Of a stretch of DNA of 64,000 nt, positions 41,772-53,209 are shown piece after piece. This stretch comes from an uncultured Pelagibacteraceae bacterium (GTDB lineage: Bacteria > Pseudomonadota > Alphaproteobacteria > Pelagibacterales > Pelagibacteraceae). Positions within the stretch are counted from its first letter, which is position 1, and every line of letters begins with the position of its first letter. The DNA is taken from contig CACMHW010000001.1 in assembly GCA_902613545.1 (NCBI GenBank), forward strand, positions 154,501-218,500, written 5' to 3'. The notes under the pieces are model-generated. The model saw only the letters and a list, made by a program, of their open reading frames with translations. It ran no database searches and was not told the origin of the DNA. The position numbers and the translations under genes are program-made.

Positions 41772-42478
41772 TGCAATTTATTAAATCCTTAATTTTTAAT
41801 TTCTTCCTATATTTTGGACTTATTCTAATTTTCATATTAGCCATACCAACATTAATTCTTCCTGATAAATTTACGATTTTTTTCGGAAGGTTATCAGCAA
41901 AATACATCGTTTTAATTTTAAAACTTGTAATGAATACTAAAGTAATTTTTCATGGAGAAGAAAACTTAAAAAAAGTAGATCAATTTTTTGTTGCCTCTGC
42001 CCATCAATCAATGTTTGAAACTTTTGCTTTACAAATTCCGCTAAATGGTCCAATTTTTATTTTAAAAAAAGAACTTTTAAACATTCCATTGTTTGGTTGG
42101 TATTTACAAAAAATTGGTTCTATTGCAATCATAAGAGAAACTACTACTAAAGAAAACTTAAATTTTTTTGATAAAGTAAAGGAAAAATTAGAGAAAAATA
42201 AAAGACCACTTTTAATATTCCCTCAAGGGACTCGAGTAAAATTAGATGAACAGCCTCCCTTTAAAAAAGGAGTTGGTCGAATTTATAAAACATTAAATTT
42301 ACCTTGTATTCCAGTCGCATTAAATACAGGAAAAGTCTGGCCAAAAAATAGTTTTATGAAATTCTCAGGAGATATTCATATTTCATTTCTAGATCCTATT
42401 ATGCCCGGTAAAGACAATGATGAGTTTACAAAAGAAATTGAAAATAAGATTTATACTGAAATAAAGAAATATTATTAA
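41771..42478 (+). CDS. plsC: 1-acyl-sn-glycerol-3-phosphate acyltransferase
   Basis: Acylates lysophosphatidate to phosphatidate in membrane lipid synthesis. A 235-residue protein with an N-terminal membrane helix (10-30). The catalytic block is HQSMFETFALQ (His-x4-Glu, a variant of the classical HX4D seen in several alphaproteobacterial members) and the glycerol-phosphate-binding motif is FPQGTR. It is the last gene of the argH-lysA transcript and abuts convergent tyrA with no spacer. Confidence 0.9.
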   Translation: MQFIKSLIFNFFLYFGLILIFILAIPTLILPDKFTIFFGRLSAKYIVLILKLVMNTKVIFHGEENLKKVDQFFVASAHQSMFETFALQIPLNGPIFILKKELLNIPLFGWYLQKIGSIAIIRETTTKENLNFFDKVKEKLEKNKRPLLIFPQGTRVKLDEQPPFKKGVGRIYKTLNLPCIPVALNTGKVWPKNSFMKFSGDIHISFLDPIMPGKDNDEFTKEIENKIYTEIKKYY

Positions 42479-43375
42479 TTATTTTCTTCCAAAGTCTGGC
42501 TTCGCTGTATCTTGCCCTGCTTCAATAATTTCTTTTCTCACTTTTTTGGTTGATGAAAATATTTCCAAAAGTTTTTTACTGTCTTTATTTTTGATGGCGC
42601 TTTTGATTTCATTAAGATTTTTGGAATAGTTATCTAAAACTTTTAAAATGTTATCACTATTATCAAAAAAAATATCTTTCCACATCAAAGGGTCTGAGGC
42701 GGCAATCCTGGTAAAATCTCTTAGTCCACCCGCACTATATTGAATCACATCGTTTTTAAATTTATCTTCATTGTTTATTGCCGTTCTTACAATACTATAA
42801 GCTACTGCGTGTGGAAGGTGACTTGTTAAAGACAATACATAGTCGTGGTCTTCAAATGACATGATCTTAACCTTACTACCTAGTTTAGACCAAAATTTTT
42901 TAAGATTATCTATTTTATCTTTAGCAACTTGATTGGCAGCTGAAAGAATGCACCATCTATTTTCAAATAAGCTTGAAAATCCCGCATCTGGACCGCTGTG
43001 CTCTGTTCCGGCTATTGGGTGTGAAGCTATCCAACTAATATTTTTAAGTCCTAGATTGTTAACAATTTTATTGACCTCTTTTTTAGTTGAACCAGTATCA
43101 GTTAAAATAGAACCTTCTTTCAAATTTGACTTTATCGAAAGCAAAATTTCTTTGTAACTACTTAATGGTGCAGAAATAATTATTAAATCTGCATCTTTTA
43201 CAGCCTCTGACACATTAGAACAAATATCGACTGAAAAATTTTTTTTTAAATATTCCATGACTCGATTTGAATTGTCGTTAACACTTATTTTTGATGCTAA
43301 TTTTTTTTCCTGTGCTGCTCTCAGAATTGAAGAACCAATCAATCCACAACCTATTATGCTTAACTTACCGAACAT
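42479..43375 (-). CDS. tyrA: Prephenate/arogenate dehydrogenase
   Basis: NAD(P)-dependent oxidative decarboxylation of prephenate or arogenate for tyrosine synthesis. The 298-residue chain has an N-terminal Rossmann motif IGCGLIGSS (8-16), TDTGSTKKEV near 96-105, and SHPIAGTEHSGPDAG near 116-130. LTSHLPHAVAY near 185-195 contains the conserved histidine. There is no chorismate mutase or ACT domain. It overlaps hisC by 11 bases, as in the common alphaproteobacterial hisC-tyrA pair. Confidence 0.93.
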   Translation of the reverse strand: MFGKLSIIGCGLIGSSILRAAQEKKLASKISVNDNSNRVMEYLKKNFSVDICSNVSEAVKDADLIIISAPLSSYKEILLSIKSNLKEGSILTDTGSTKKEVNKIVNNLGLKNISWIASHPIAGTEHSGPDAGFSSLFENRWCILSAANQVAKDKIDNLKKFWSKLGSKVKIMSFEDHDYVLSLTSHLPHAVAYSIVRTAINNEDKFKNDVIQYSAGGLRDFTRIAASDPLMWKDIFFDNSDNILKVLDNYSKNLNEIKSAIKNKDSKKLLEIFSSTKKVRKEIIEAGQDTAKPDFGRK

Positions 43376-44450
43376 TTAAAATCTTTCTCATTTTTTTAAT
43401 TAACACTATATTCTCTGACGATGTCCCAATAGTTATACGTAAAGAATTTTTAATTCCGTAAACATCCATTTTACGAACTAATATTCCAGATTTTGCAAGT
43501 AATTTAAAAACTTTAGCAGAGTTTAATTTCACTTTATCGAATTTCACCAATAAGAAATTAGTAAAACTGTAATTTGTTTCTATTCTCATTTTTTTAAACT
43601 CAGAAAACATTTTTTTACTCCATTTATTTACATGTTTAATTTCTTTATTAAGCCATGCGCTGTCTTTTACTGCAGCAGAAGCCGCAAATAAGGCTGGTCT
43701 ACTCACATTGAAAGGTGGCTTAACCTTGTTTAATGCAGAAATAATTTCTTTTGACCCATATCCCCAACCAACTCTAAGTCCTGCTAAACCATATATTTTT
43801 GAAAAGGTTCTTGTCATAATCACATTTTTAAAATTTGTAAAAGTTCTTAAACCAGACAGATAATCTTTTTGTTTTACATACTCAAAATAAGCATCATCAA
43901 CTACCAATAGAATATTGCTTCTCAATTTTTTTCTTAAAAAGAGCAATTTTTTTTTTGAAATATATGTTCCAGTTGGGTTATTTGGATTAGCTAAGAAAAC
44001 TATTTTGGTTCTCCCTGTAACTTTTTTTAGTATATCTTTAATTGAAACAGTAAAATTATCCTCCTTTGAATAAATAACTTTTGCTCCATTCATTCTGCTG
44101 TAAATTCTGTAAATTATAAAACTAAACTTTGGAACTATAACTTCGTCTCCTTTTTTTAAGAACGATTTACATATTAGTTCAAATATTTGATCAGAACCTG
44201 ATCCTAGGATTATTCTATTTTTATCAATCTTAAATTTATTAGCTAAAGTATTTCTTAAAAAGGTTCCGTCAGAGTCAGGGTATCTTGCAAAATTTTTTGA
44301 AACTTCTAAGTATTGTTTTTTTGCTTTAGGGCTAGGGCCAAGAGCAGACTCATTAGCTGATAATTTAATTTTTGCTAATTTACTCTTAAATAAACTCATT
44401 CCAGCTACATATTTCTCTGCAACAATATTATTTGGTTTCGGAAATCTCAT
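43365..44450 (-). CDS. hisC: Histidinol-phosphate / aromatic aminotransferase
   Basis: PLP-dependent aminotransferase of 361 residues. The cofactor lysine lies in TRTFSKIYGLAGLRVGWG near 213-230; NPNNPTGTYI and DDAYFEYV complete the site. Paired with tyrA it probably serves both histidinol-phosphate and aromatic transamination, as alphaproteobacterial HisC2 enzymes do. It is divergent from metX across a 176-base regulatory gap. Confidence 0.92.
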   Translation of the reverse strand: MRFPKPNNIVAEKYVAGMSLFKSKLAKIKLSANESALGPSPKAKKQYLEVSKNFARYPDSDGTFLRNTLANKFKIDKNRIILGSGSDQIFELICKSFLKKGDEVIVPKFSFIIYRIYSRMNGAKVIYSKEDNFTVSIKDILKKVTGRTKIVFLANPNNPTGTYISKKKLLFLRKKLRSNILLVVDDAYFEYVKQKDYLSGLRTFTNFKNVIMTRTFSKIYGLAGLRVGWGYGSKEIISALNKVKPPFNVSRPALFAASAAVKDSAWLNKEIKHVNKWSKKMFSEFKKMRIETNYSFTNFLLVKFDKVKLNSAKVFKLLAKSGILVRKMDVYGIKNSLRITIGTSSENIVLIKKMRKILNVR

Positions 44451-44510
44451 TTATTTAATGTATTATCTAAATTGTTTAAGTTTTTCTATAGCTCTTTATC
44501 GTATATAAAA

Positions 44511-44539
44511 TTGACAAGTTTGTGATGATTTAGTAAACA
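44511..44539 (+). promoter_or_regulatory. Candidate promoter placing the transcript start at the SAM-II aptamer
   Basis: A perfect TTGACA (44511-44516), 17 bases, then TAAACA (44534-44539). The start point would fall at about 44545, where the riboswitch begins. The -10 is weak. Confidence 0.5.
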
Positions 44540-44543
44540 TTAA

Positions 44544-44596
44544 TCGCGCTGATTTAACCGTATTGCAAGCGCGTGATAAATGTAGCTAAAAAGGGG
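44544..44596 (+). promoter_or_regulatory. SAM-II riboswitch controlling metX
   Basis: The sequence closely matches the SAM-II consensus (metA motif). P1 is CGCGCT (44545-44550) with AGCGCG (44568-44573), enclosing GATTTAACCGTATTGCA. The conserved GTGATAAATGTAGCTAAAAAGGG tail (44573-44595) forms the pseudoknot in known structures. I recall an environmental SAM-II crystal-structure sequence essentially identical to this one. SAM binding sequesters the 3' G-run, lowering expression. It sits 30 bases before metX, a methionine gene, which is the classical alphaproteobacterial target. Confidence 0.93.
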
Positions 44597-44598
44597 AT

Positions 44599-44624
44599 GC
44601 CCAGTTTAGCTGGGCTTTTTTTTT
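44599..44624 (+). terminator. Intrinsic terminator directly after the SAM-II aptamer
   Basis: GCCCAG (44599-44604) and CTGGGC (44610-44615) form a 6-base stem with loop TTTAG, followed by nine T (44616-44624). The G-run of the aptamer (44593-44596) could instead pair with CCC (44600-44602), giving a competing structure. The arrangement suggests transcription attenuation controlled by SAM. Confidence 0.85.
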
Positions 44625-44626
44625 GG

Positions 44627-45766
44627 ATGAATATAAAACTTGAGAATATAAAGAAACTAGATGTAAAAAAACCACTCAAATTGGATTGTGGAAAAACTAT
44701 TAGTAATTTTCCTTTAGCTTATGAAACTTATGGAAAATTAAACAAGAATAAGGATAATGCTATTCTTGTTTTTCATGCTTTAACTGGTGATCAGTATGTT
44801 ACTGGTATTAATCCAATAACTAATAAAGAAGGTTGGTGGATCACTGCAGTAGGACCAGGTAAAGCTATAGACACTAACAAATATTTTGTTATTTGCGCAA
44901 ATGTCATTGGCGGATGTATGGGTTCTTTAGGTCCACGAAATATTAACCCTGAAACAAATCAACCATATGGACTAGATTTCCCGGTTATTACAATTAAGGA
45001 TATGGTAAGAGCTCAAGAGTCTTTACTTGATCATCTTGGAATTAAAAAACTTTTATGTGCAACTGGTGGTTCTATGGGTGGAATGCAACTATTGCAGTTT
45101 TGTGCAACTTTTCCAGATAAAACTTTTTCTGCTATTCCAATAGCCTGCAGCTCAAGTCATAGTGCACAGAATATTGCTTTAAATGAGTTAGCGCGCCAAG
45201 CAATTATGGCTGATCCGGTGTGGGAGAATGGAAAATATGTTTTGAAAAACCTTCAACCAAAAAATGGTTTGGCTGTTGCAAGAATGGTTGGACATATAAG
45301 TTATCTATCTGAAAAGGGAATGCAGGAAAAATTTGGAAGAAAATTACAAGAGAAAGCTGACTATGAATTTAGTTTTAATGCAGATTTTCAAGTAGAAAGT
45401 TACTTAAGACATCAAGGTTATGCATTTGTTGAAAGGTTTGATGCAAACTCAGTTCTTTATATTACAAGAGCAATGGATTATTTTGATCTATCAAAACAGT
45501 TTAAAGGCGGCCTTATAGAAGCATTTAAAAATCAAGAAACAAAGTTTTTGATAATATCTTTTTCTTCTGATTGGTTATACACAACAAAAGATAATAAAGA
45601 CATAGTAATTGCACTAAACGCATCTGGAGCTGATGTTTCATATTCAGAAATTGTTACAGACAAAGGGCATGACTCATTTTTACTGGATGAACCCGAATTT
45701 CTAAAAACTTTGAAAGGTTTTATAGACTCCATTTACGAAAAATTTAAAAATGAAAAAAGAATTTAA
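44627..45766 (+). CDS. metX: Homoserine O-acetyltransferase
   Basis: Activates homoserine for sulfhydrylation to homocysteine in methionine synthesis. I choose the ATG at 44627 (379 residues, MNIKLENIKK), immediately after the terminator U-run. An in-frame ATG at 44597 has the G-run directly before it but would place the terminator inside the gene. The alpha/beta hydrolase motifs are FHALTGDQYV near 49-58, the nucleophile Ser149 in GGSMGGMQ, and later SSDWLYT and KGHDSFLLDEPEF with Asp and His. The stop overlaps metW by 17 bases. Confidence 0.93.
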   Translation: MNIKLENIKKLDVKKPLKLDCGKTISNFPLAYETYGKLNKNKDNAILVFHALTGDQYVTGINPITNKEGWWITAVGPGKAIDTNKYFVICANVIGGCMGSLGPRNINPETNQPYGLDFPVITIKDMVRAQESLLDHLGIKKLLCATGGSMGGMQLLQFCATFPDKTFSAIPIACSSSHSAQNIALNELARQAIMADPVWENGKYVLKNLQPKNGLAVARMVGHISYLSEKGMQEKFGRKLQEKADYEFSFNADFQVESYLRHQGYAFVERFDANSVLYITRAMDYFDLSKQFKGGLIEAFKNQETKFLIISFSSDWLYTTKDNKDIVIALNASGADVSYSEIVTDKGHDSFLLDEPEFLKTLKGFIDSIYEKFKNEKRI

Positions 45767-46343
45767 AGTAATTGCAGACTTATTACCAAGCAACACACGT
45801 GTCCTAGACGTAGGTTGTGGAGATGGATCATTGATGAGTCTTCTTAGAAAAGATAAAAATATAAATGTAAGAGGATTGGAGTTAAATCAAAGTAATGTAC
45901 AACAATGTATTCGTAAAGGATTACCAGTAATACAAGGTAATGCTGAAACTGAGCTTCATCAATTTCCAGATCAATCCTTTGACTTCGTAATTTTAAGTCA
46001 GACCCTTCAAGCTTTTTACGAACCTGAGAAAGTCTTAAGAGATCTTTTAAGAATTGGTAAATCTGTAATTATTTCTATTCCAAATTTTGGGTATTGGAAG
46101 GTAAGAACAAAACTTTTATTTTTTGGTAAGATGCCAGTTACAAAGACTTTACCAAACACTTGGTATAATACACCAAATTTACATATGTGTACTATAAAAG
46201 ATTTATTTAATTTTTGTGATGAAAAAAAAATAATTATAAAAAAAGTCGTTGGAGTAAATGAGGATAAAATTTCATTGATTAAAAAGGGAAATTTGGAAAT
46301 CAAAAATCTTTTTTCAAAACTAGGTATTTTCTTAATTGGATAA
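45750..46343 (+). CDS. metW: Methionine biosynthesis protein MetW
   Basis: A 197-residue class I methyltransferase-like partner of MetX. The SAM-binding motif is VLDVGCGDGSLM near 19-30, followed by DFVILSQTLQAF. MetW is thought to support MetX activity rather than methylate a known substrate. It is translationally coupled to metX and is therefore under the same SAM-II control. Confidence 0.93.
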   Translation: MKKEFKVIADLLPSNTRVLDVGCGDGSLMSLLRKDKNINVRGLELNQSNVQQCIRKGLPVIQGNAETELHQFPDQSFDFVILSQTLQAFYEPEKVLRDLLRIGKSVIISIPNFGYWKVRTKLLFFGKMPVTKTLPNTWYNTPNLHMCTIKDLFNFCDEKKIIIKKVVGVNEDKISLIKKGNLEIKNLFSKLGIFLIG

Positions 46344-51728: not shown

Positions 51729-52076
51729 ATGGGAATTACTGATATTAAAAATAATATTGAAAAAATATTAGATGATAATAAAGCTCAAAATATATCATGC
51801 ATTGACTTAAAAAATAAATCATACATAGCAGATTATATGGTTATAGCTTCCGGGACATCTTCAAGGCATTTGCAGGCATTATCTGAAATTCTTGTAGCAC
51901 AATTAAAAAAATTAGGAATAGACAATTGTCGTCTTGAGGGAAAAGATAGTAGCGACTGGAAATTAGTTGATGCACATGATGTAATTGTGCATATTTTTCA
52001 TCCAGAAAAAAGAAAATTTTATGATCTTGAAAAAATGTGGTCAGAGGAAATACCAAAAGAAAAGGCCATGATATGA
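51729..52076 (+). CDS. rsfS: Ribosome silencing factor
   Basis: Binds L14 and blocks subunit joining in starvation. The 115-residue sequence carries YMVIASGTSSRHLQALSE and EGKDSSDWKLVDAHDVIVHIF, the two family signatures. The stop overlaps the ctpA start (ATGA). Confidence 0.94.
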   Translation: MGITDIKNNIEKILDDNKAQNISCIDLKNKSYIADYMVIASGTSSRHLQALSEILVAQLKKLGIDNCRLEGKDSSDWKLVDAHDVIVHIFHPEKRKFYDLEKMWSEEIPKEKAMI

Positions 52077-53209
52077 AAAAATTTTTAATTTTATTAGTTT
52101 TTTTTTTCAATTTATCTTCTACTTTAGTAAATTCAAAAAATAATCTTTATGAAAAAATTGATCTTTTTGGTGAAGTCTTAGAAAATATTAAAAAAGAATA
52201 TGTTGATGATGTAAATCAAGCTGAAATGATGGACTCAGCCATTAATGGGGTCCTCCAATCTTTAGATCCTTACTCGGCTTACATGAGCCCAGAACTTTTT
52301 AAAGAAATGCAAACTGATACGAAAGGTGAATTTGGCGGATTAGGAATAGAAATTGGTATGGAGGCTGGAGTGGTGAAAGTAATCTCTCCTATAGATGATA
52401 CTCCTGCAGCAAAAGCTGGTATTAAAGCTGGAGACTACATTGTAAAAATCGGAAACAAACAAGTGCAAGGCAAATCTCTGCTGGAAGCTGTAAAGTTAAT
52501 GAGAGGTCCAGTTGGAACTTCAATTGAACTTACGATAAGACGTAAAAATGTAAAAAAACCTTTAGAATTCAAAATTATAAGAAAAATAATCGAGGTACAG
52601 TCAGTAAGTGCTAAGCTCTTAGGCAAGGATAAAAATTTAGGTTACATAAGACTTAAATCGTTTAACGAAAACAGTGATAAACAAGTTCTTAAATCTGTGA
52701 AAGAATTTGAAAAAAAAACTAAGATTAAAGGTTATGTGTTTGATTTAAGGAACAATCCGGGTGGATTATTAACTCAAGCAATAAATATAACTGATTTTTT
52801 TCTAGAGGATGGAGAAATAGTTTCCACTAAAGGAAGAAAAATTTCAGAAACTAGAAAATTTTTTGCAAGGAAAGGAGACGCAATTAAAGGTAAACCAATT
52901 GTTGTTATGATCAACAATGGATCAGCCTCTGCCTCTGAAATATTTGCTGGAGCTTTAAAAGATCATAAAAGGGCTATAATACTTGGTGAAAATTCTTACG
53001 GTAAAGGATCAGTTCAATCAATAATACCTTTACAAAATGGTGGAGGAATGAGACTTACTATCTCAAAATATTACTTACCATCTGGTAAATCTATATCAGA
53101 GGTTGGTGTTACACCTGACATATTTGTGGAAGAAGAAGGTGAAGATTTTCTAATTAATTCCGATAGAGACAACCAACTAAACTACGCTATAAAACTTTTT
53201 AGTTCTTAA
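52073..53209 (+). CDS. ctpA: C-terminal processing peptidase (S41 family)
   Basis: Periplasmic serine protease that trims protein C-termini. I use the ATG at 52073 (378 residues), which gives a signal peptide (1-21, ending VNS); a start at 52037 would hide it. The PDZ domain spans about 87-160 (GGLGIEIGMEAGVVKV, AGIKAGDYIVKI). The catalytic serine is in GSASASE (283-289) and Lys311 in SYGKGSVQ. It follows rsfS by overlap and precedes rppH by 5 bases. Confidence 0.94.
   Translation: MKKFLILLVFFFNLSSTLVNSKNNLYEKIDLFGEVLENIKKEYVDDVNQAEMMDSAINGVLQSLDPYSAYMSPELFKEMQTDTKGEFGGLGIEIGMEAGVVKVISPIDDTPAAKAGIKAGDYIVKIGNKQVQGKSLLEAVKLMRGPVGTSIELTIRRKNVKKPLEFKIIRKIIEVQSVSAKLLGKDKNLGYIRLKSFNENSDKQVLKSVKEFEKKTKIKGYVFDLRNNPGGLLTQAINITDFFLEDGEIVSTKGRKISETRKFFARKGDAIKGKPIVVMINNGSASASEIFAGALKDHKRAIILGENSYGKGSVQSIIPLQNGGGMRLTISKYYLPSGKSISEVGVTPDIFVEEEGEDFLINSDRDNQLNYAIKLFSS

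Follow-up and report, generated by a model that had tools for sequence, protein, structure and literature searches.

A SAM-II aptamer joined to an intrinsic terminator ahead of metX in Pelagibacteraceae, and apparent changes of expression platform within the order

The 52-nt metX SAM-II RNA has been studied by crystallography, smFRET, NMR, SAXS and simulation, work that is framed as Shine-Dalgarno sequestration in the relevant passages of PMC10907184 and PMC12434664. The window analysed here, a stretch of 64,000 nucleotides from an uncultured Pelagibacteraceae bacterium, contains such an aptamer running into an intrinsic terminator immediately before metX, and raises the question of which step of gene expression the RNA controls in its genomic setting. 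A preliminary description of the locus had taken SAM-II switches to be usually translational. This holds for this particular RNA as it has been treated, but SAM-II switches with intrinsic terminators were predicted earlier (Corbino 2005, PMC1273637; Barrick and Breaker 2007, PMC2258182), and the metX leader belongs to this known kind.

The aptamer and its setting

Read 5' to 3', the leader consists of the SAM-II aptamer, a short linker, a GCCCAG/CTGGGC hairpin, nine T, GG and the metX ATG at 44627. The features of the locus are as follows.

43365-44450, minus strand: hisC, divergent from metX (TIGR01141, 318.4 bits)
44511-44516, plus strand: TTGACA, picked out by eye as a weak candidate for the -35 element of the metX promoter
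44544-44595, plus strand: SAM-II aptamer, 52 nt (RF00521 match; identity with the published SAM-II-WT RNA)
44583-44590, plus strand: predicted antiterminator 5' strand, UAGCUAAA, including the P2 3' strand and the adenines of the SAM site (nascent folds, controls, 2QWY numbering)
44593-44595, plus strand: GGG at the aptamer 3' end, doubling as the predicted inner antiterminator stem with 44600-44602 (nascent folds)
44597-44599, plus strand: in-frame AUG adjoining the G-run, not a conserved start (80 relatives)
44599-44615, plus strand: terminator hairpin GCCCAG(UUUAG)CUGGGC (folding, terminator scan, 80/80 near relatives)
44605-44612, plus strand: predicted antiterminator 3' strand, UUUAGCUG, lying in the loop and 3' arm of the terminator (nascent folds; SAM-II leaders elsewhere in the order give similar duplexes)
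44616-44624, plus strand: U9 tract of the terminator (sequence; kept in relatives)
44627-45766, plus strand: metX, homoserine O-acetyltransferase, the regulated gene (NCBIfam NF001209, 511.8 bits, cut-off 331)
45750-46343, plus strand: metW, overlapping metX (TIGR02081, 233.3 bits, cut-off 189.5)

The Rfam model SAM_alpha (RF00521) matches 44536-44610 with 34.1 bits and, for a search space of 601 bases, an E-value of 5.9e-6. The gathering score, a search cut-off and no biological feature, is 36; the match falls slightly short of it, and RF00521 is for this reason absent from the default scan of the window. Positions 44544-44595 are identical at all 52 nucleotides to the SAM-II-WT RNA given in the methods of PMC8494917. 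With 44544 counted as position 1, the window also matches all nine nucleotides that the passage on base triples in PMC3764141 names for structure 2QWY (G8, C23 and G42; U11, U21 and A45; U12, U20 and A46), so that the nucleotides conserved in the SAM-II core and pseudoknot are present; the adenines of the SAM site, A45 and A46, correspond to 44588 and 44589. The account of 2QWY in PMC8525861 describes an RNA crystallised in complex with SAM and originating from a metX 5' UTR on a Sargasso Sea sequence. Judging by the full identity, the nine shared triple bases and this metX 5' UTR origin, the window appears to carry the crystallised RNA in its natural form, or something very close to the sequence from which it was taken. 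Among the loci compared, the exact 52-mer was found in this genome, in G010 and on the L032 contig (single cell AG-914-J05), the last two being possibly one genome. Unlike the RNA as treated in the publications cited here, where it occludes a ribosome-binding site, the RNA in the window runs on into a terminator.

The P1 helix pairs 44545-44550 with 44568-44573. In an alignment of 22 chosen relatives, 95.5% of P1 cells were paired and two of the six pairs showed two-sided changes; the covariation score was reached by none of 500 shuffles and the number of pair types by 129.

The genes metX and metW presumably form one operon. A promoter scan of 44400-44700 found none, and the positions taken for the metX promoter and the ends of the leader RNA are putative. 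An ordinary terminator of an upstream gene was considered for the hairpin and ruled out, there being no plausible plus-strand gene ending nearby: the terminator serves metX only, because the nearest such gene upstream ends at 42478 and two minus-strand genes intervene before the leader.

The terminator and its predicted competitor

The spacing given in the preliminary description agrees with the letters: the G-run (44593-44596) is followed by AT and, within three bases, by the hairpin arms GCCCAG (44599-44604) and CTGGGC (44610-44615), nine T and two further bases before the ATG. A terminator scan of 44400-44700 returned this hairpin as its one site, against 0.1 in shuffled sequence. Conservation was assessed in 80 named Pelagibacteraceae loci, the best 80 of 211 by metX similarity, with MetX 90-98% identical; loci L112-L181 share genomes with L032-L111, and the main counts are therefore restricted to the named loci. 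Both hairpin and U-tract are kept in 80/80 of these near relatives, and all 31 letters from hairpin to ATG are common to 71 of them. Identity to the majority is 99.1% at positions -28 to -1, 93.8% in the aptamer and 71.4% at metX third codon positions. A first hairpin finder scored 156 of 178 metX loci, the other 22 having visible hairpins with 14-nt loops past its limit. A wider finder scored 250 of 252 aptamer-matching loci and gave no match in nine: six metX leaders of the genus numbered g6 (genera are labelled g1-g14 by working number), and L222, L234 and L250, which have a hairpin with a broken U-tract.

Folding 44544-44626, a check that the preliminary description had suggested, gives P1 and the hairpin, the latter lengthened by pairs between an A/G strand and the U-tract. 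As 14 of 200 shuffles fold equally well (z -1.54), the folding energy alone is weak evidence. In folds of nascent transcripts from 44580, pairing of GGG with CCC appears first (-4.7 kcal/mol), and for transcripts ending from 44609 to 44623 the minimum free energy (MFE) structure is an antiterminator, consisting of 8 bp between UAGCUAAA and UUUAGCUG (U44583-A44590 with U44605-G44612) and 3 bp between G44593-95 and C44600-02, with -13.8 to -14.3 kcal/mol at full size. The G-run had been proposed as the strand that pairs with the terminator's CCC when SAM is absent; this pairing does form in the folds, but contributes only 3 of the 11 antiterminator pairs, the main part lying between 44583-44590 and 44605-44612. 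With 44583-44595 barred from pairing, to imitate the pseudoknot with SAM bound, the terminator alone forms (-12.0 kcal/mol); the two pairings are mutually exclusive in these calculations, which predict an antiterminator that would exclude both aptamer and terminator. From 44624 the free MFE structure is the terminator extended by the A/G strand-U-tract pairs (-15.0 to -16.5 kcal/mol), and equilibrium favours the terminator side, the MFE of 44580-44626 being the extended terminator at -16.5 kcal/mol.

The same competition is predicted throughout the leaders compared. For all of 89 distinct leader segments, which represent 252 loci if overlapping genomes are counted, there is a nascent length at which the core is paired to the hairpin region; this is so for 750 of 1780 downstream-shuffled segments (781 of 1780 if any pairing of the core is counted). 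Blocking the strand leaves a terminator-type hairpin in all 89. Free folds of segments that stop 5 nt into the U-tract show core-hairpin pairing in only 61/89. This, together with the terminator-like free MFE, implies that antitermination must be kinetic.

A terminator acting constitutively, uncoupled from SAM and doing no more than reducing metX expression, would account for a hairpin that is good by itself (-12.0 kcal/mol, followed by U9) and for the terminator-like MFE at full length. It leaves unexplained the excess of nascent core pairing over shuffles and the complementarity of the loops to the SAM-binding strand across SAM-II leaders, and is the least probable of the readings considered. 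For 65 distinct combinations of aptamer strand and hairpin, taken from SAM-II leaders before metX and elsewhere, the calculated duplexes range from -7.4 to -18.6 kcal/mol; the program reports a duplex for any input. The weakest are those of L007 and L248, both in the second family of the order (g2, g3, g4 and g13). The observed energy was reached by 2-6 of 1000 shuffles of the leader's own hairpin in three leaders of the window's family, and by 4, 22, 78 and 86 per 1000 in four second-family leaders, so for two of these four order relatives the controls are weak. Two of 15 control hairpins, a small set, did as well. When hairpins were swapped between leader groups, the cognate was best in 34 of 65, a shared GCUAA core and GCCC arm binding many strands.

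Covariation was sought in 27 second-type SAM-II leaders, of which the copy in the window's own genome precedes metY. In these, 88.9% of antiterminator cells pair and three pairs show two-sided changes, a number reached by 1 of 500 shuffles, with the covariation score reached by 4 of 500. The support is thin because L230 is the sole source of two of these pairs; for the third, which varies in L230 and L233, 22 of the 27 leaders show no pairing. Variation in the terminator stem is too small to be informative (34/500 shuffles).

It is highly probable, from the conservation and the folding, that this riboswitch represses metX, together with metW, by premature transcription termination. When SAM is bound, the H-type pseudoknot would keep AGCUAAAAAGGG (44584-44595) occupied; with this strand held, the GCCCAG/CUGGGC hairpin with its U9 would form and RNA polymerase would halt just before the start codon. 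In the SAM-free RNA, the same strand would first pair with UUUAGCUG of the terminator, and GGG with CCC; once in place, this antiterminator would leave the terminator too late to form, and metX would be transcribed. The termination in the cell would thus depend on SAM, as in the off-switch of the preliminary description. The arrangement reported there is real and the guess at its logic was right; the interpretation as a whole is partly supported. If termination is the mechanism, the 'Shine-Dalgarno' of the 52-nt RNA would be the P2/antiterminator strand, co-transcriptional folding rather than equilibrium would count, and the usual 52-nt construct would lack the part that competes with SAM.

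The leader resembles the predicted terminator-type SAM-II switches (PMC1273637, PMC2258182) in its aptamer, its position before a methionine gene, the terminator between P2 and the open reading frame and its OFF logic; those predictions were made in bulk, whereas the present analysis works out the antiterminator, and how well it is conserved, for the lineage of the crystallised RNA. In the part of PMC9373788 that deals with S. meliloti metZ, a terminator is likewise predicted to form upon SAM binding. The passage of PMC11508383 on the full-length tandem RNA reports that SAM-II is kept from responding to SAM by a linker with a predicted hairpin, a result that a kinetic switch would fit by analogy. 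One sentence of PMC5069961 states that SAM-II switches act on transcription in the case of SAR11 bhmT and metX. For sulfur-limited HTCC1062 this source names osmC, bhmT, metY and mmuM as the four transcripts with the strongest rise, metX not being among them; depending on the leader type of that strain, this may weigh against the metX switch.

Readings based on translation

Direct occlusion of the ribosome-binding site alone, in which SAM locks the G-run, acting as Shine-Dalgarno sequence, in P2 and blocks metX translation, is the accepted model for the metX/Sargasso or 52-nt SAM-II RNA in the relevant parts of PMC10907184, PMC12434664 and PMC9373788, and the leaders of a related clade (g5, g8 and g11) do look translational. 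In the window's own lineage the aptamer holds no Shine-Dalgarno sequence at working distance from metX: SD-like motifs were found 4-20 nt before the metX AUG in 0/80 named near relatives, and the end of the G-run lies 30 nt from the AUG, with the terminator in between. The codon beside the G-run is ATG in 63 of the 80 relatives (62 in frame with metX), TAG in 13 and ACG in 4. Since ATG is replaced in 17/80, the G-run and its adjacent AUG are no conserved start site. SD-like motifs also precede the first ATG by 4-20 nt in only 5 of 42 window open reading frames of at least 200 aa, against 46 of 274 internal in-frame ATGs. Although these starts are crude, no enrichment is seen at long open reading frames, and any model based on a ribosome-binding site is therefore weakened in this lineage. 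Occlusion by itself is accordingly very improbable here. The same figures remove one argument of the preliminary description, which had invoked the terminator to explain the missing ribosome-binding site; no such explanation is needed.

A start of metX at AUG 44597 was also considered, and was rejected on the TAG (13/80), the ACG (4/80) and a frame shift in 1/80. As a separate observation, positions 44597-44626 of this genome, with the terminator in frame with metX, would encode MPSLAGLFFW ahead of the conserved start; the same three kinds of change in relatives speak against its translation.

Dual control in the style of S. meliloti metA, in which SAM would act twice, stopping transcription and masking a distant Shine-Dalgarno sequence that serves AUG 44627 across the folded hairpin, overlaps with termination and would add to it. 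The order of elements is that of metA (SAM-II, Shine-Dalgarno, AUG1, terminator, AUG2), the section of PMC9373788 on metA reports use of the distant Shine-Dalgarno sequence, and with the hairpin folded the G-run would be 13 nt from the AUG. The distance is lengthened, though, in g9, g10, g12 and g14 by U-runs between G-run and hairpin and by longer tails before the AUG, and the use of Shine-Dalgarno sequences in the window looks rare. The metA terminator, moreover, is not predicted to respond to SAM in that section, whereas the metX terminator shares its predicted antiterminator with the aptamer strand, and a Shine-Dalgarno role in the metX leader would be putative. Such an additional layer is a possibility of lower probability.

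Expression platforms across the order

The window's genome contains a second SAM-II (L002; G000:C3 92973-93047, 24.8 bits), in a leader in which SAM-II is followed by a terminator, a SAM-V (RF01826, 74.4 bits) and metY (TIGR01326, 574.8 bits), the elements spanning 1501-1679 and 1770-3062 of L002. The loop of its terminator is complementary to the SAM-II core, the same design as in the metX leader. The metX leader is like the tandem SAM-II/SAM-V of Ca. Pelagibacter ubique (PMC9481103, and the passage on it in PMC11508383) in that SAM-II is followed by a terminator, and differs from it in consisting of SAM-II alone, with the terminator abutting the start codon.

The aptamer model R1 matches 366 of 397 sampled genomes of the order and 193 of 197 of the family. 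Terminators were present in every metX leader read from a subset of the genomes of g1, g9, g10, g12, g14 and the second family. In g6, the leaders sampled were 56, from 50 of 101 genomes with a match plus six from order-wide matches; 55 were scored, and L259, which looks alike, was left out because its sequence ends within the aptamer. None of the 55 metX leaders has a GC hairpin together with a T-run of six, so the case that the preliminary description had named as telling against it, an aptamer retained where the hairpin is lacking, exists in part. All 55 have U5-U9 directly after the core, and all 55 contain CUC(N)(C/U)AAUUC within one error. The aptamer's UGAAUUGCGAG is complementary to the CUC element, with duplexes of -10.2 to -10.5 kcal/mol that 0-1 of 1000 shuffles equalled in four leaders. 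The pseudoknot itself may be the terminator stem in g6, or the CUC element may refold the aptamer after read-through. The anti-aptamer motif reads CUC(A)CAAUUCA and is conserved in the g6 leaders L220, L224, L226, L228, L249, L251 and L253-L302.

The translational-looking genera were sampled in 8/8 genomes of g5, 6/6 of g8 and, in g11, two with metX of three searched (L309, L310, L312-L314, L316, L319, L320, L325, L327 and L330-L335). R1 finds the aptamer in all 16 leaders (E 3.3e-7 or better), and an AGG run follows the core in 16/16, with a T-run of six before the AUG in 0/16. A hairpin between G-run and AUG, ending 4-10 nt before the AUG, was found by script in 12/16; in L310, L313 and L330 the script mistook another stretch for the core, and the hairpin was identified by eye, while L333 holds an N that obscures the reading. 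This spacer hairpin changes in sequence and has no U-tract, and it looks as if the folded spacer brings a Shine-Dalgarno sequence near the AUG. No R1 match was obtained in the four metX loci of g7 (L315, L318, L323 and L324), where, by eye, coding sequence seems to reach just before the gene.

Mapped onto a MetX tree of 48 chosen rows (49 taken, the short L327 dropped; midpoint rooting), the four leader states require three changes, each derived state lying on one branch; one deep fork has modest support (90/78). This suggests that the terminator is likely, though not proven, to be the ancestral metX platform. Three platforms are apparent within the one order: a terminator, a Shine-Dalgarno sequence with a hairpin spacer, and an anti-aptamer with a U-tract. 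The full proposition is that the archetype RNA of ribosome-binding-site occlusion is in nature a termination switch, and that its combination of aptamer and gene was rewired on two or more occasions in the order, to a Shine-Dalgarno sequence with a spacer-folding hairpin in g5, g8 and g11, and to a U-tract abutting P2 with the anti-aptamer CUC(A)CAAUUCA in g6, the pseudoknot there possibly being the terminator stem. For this the chances seem evenly balanced. The metX leaders of the order constitute a natural series with one aptamer, one gene and an output mechanism that has apparently changed, so that the evolution of expression platforms can be tested directly. The interest of the locus lies in this turnover and in the identity with the archetype RNA, both computational so far.

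One further Rfam match in the window, to the Rickettsia sRNA Rp_sR47 at 52745-53057 on the minus strand (65.6 bits, gathering score 60), lies antisense inside a 390-aa open reading frame (52037-53209, plus strand) which by eye resembles that of a periplasmic S41-type protease, and probably reflects conserved coding sequence rather than an sRNA.
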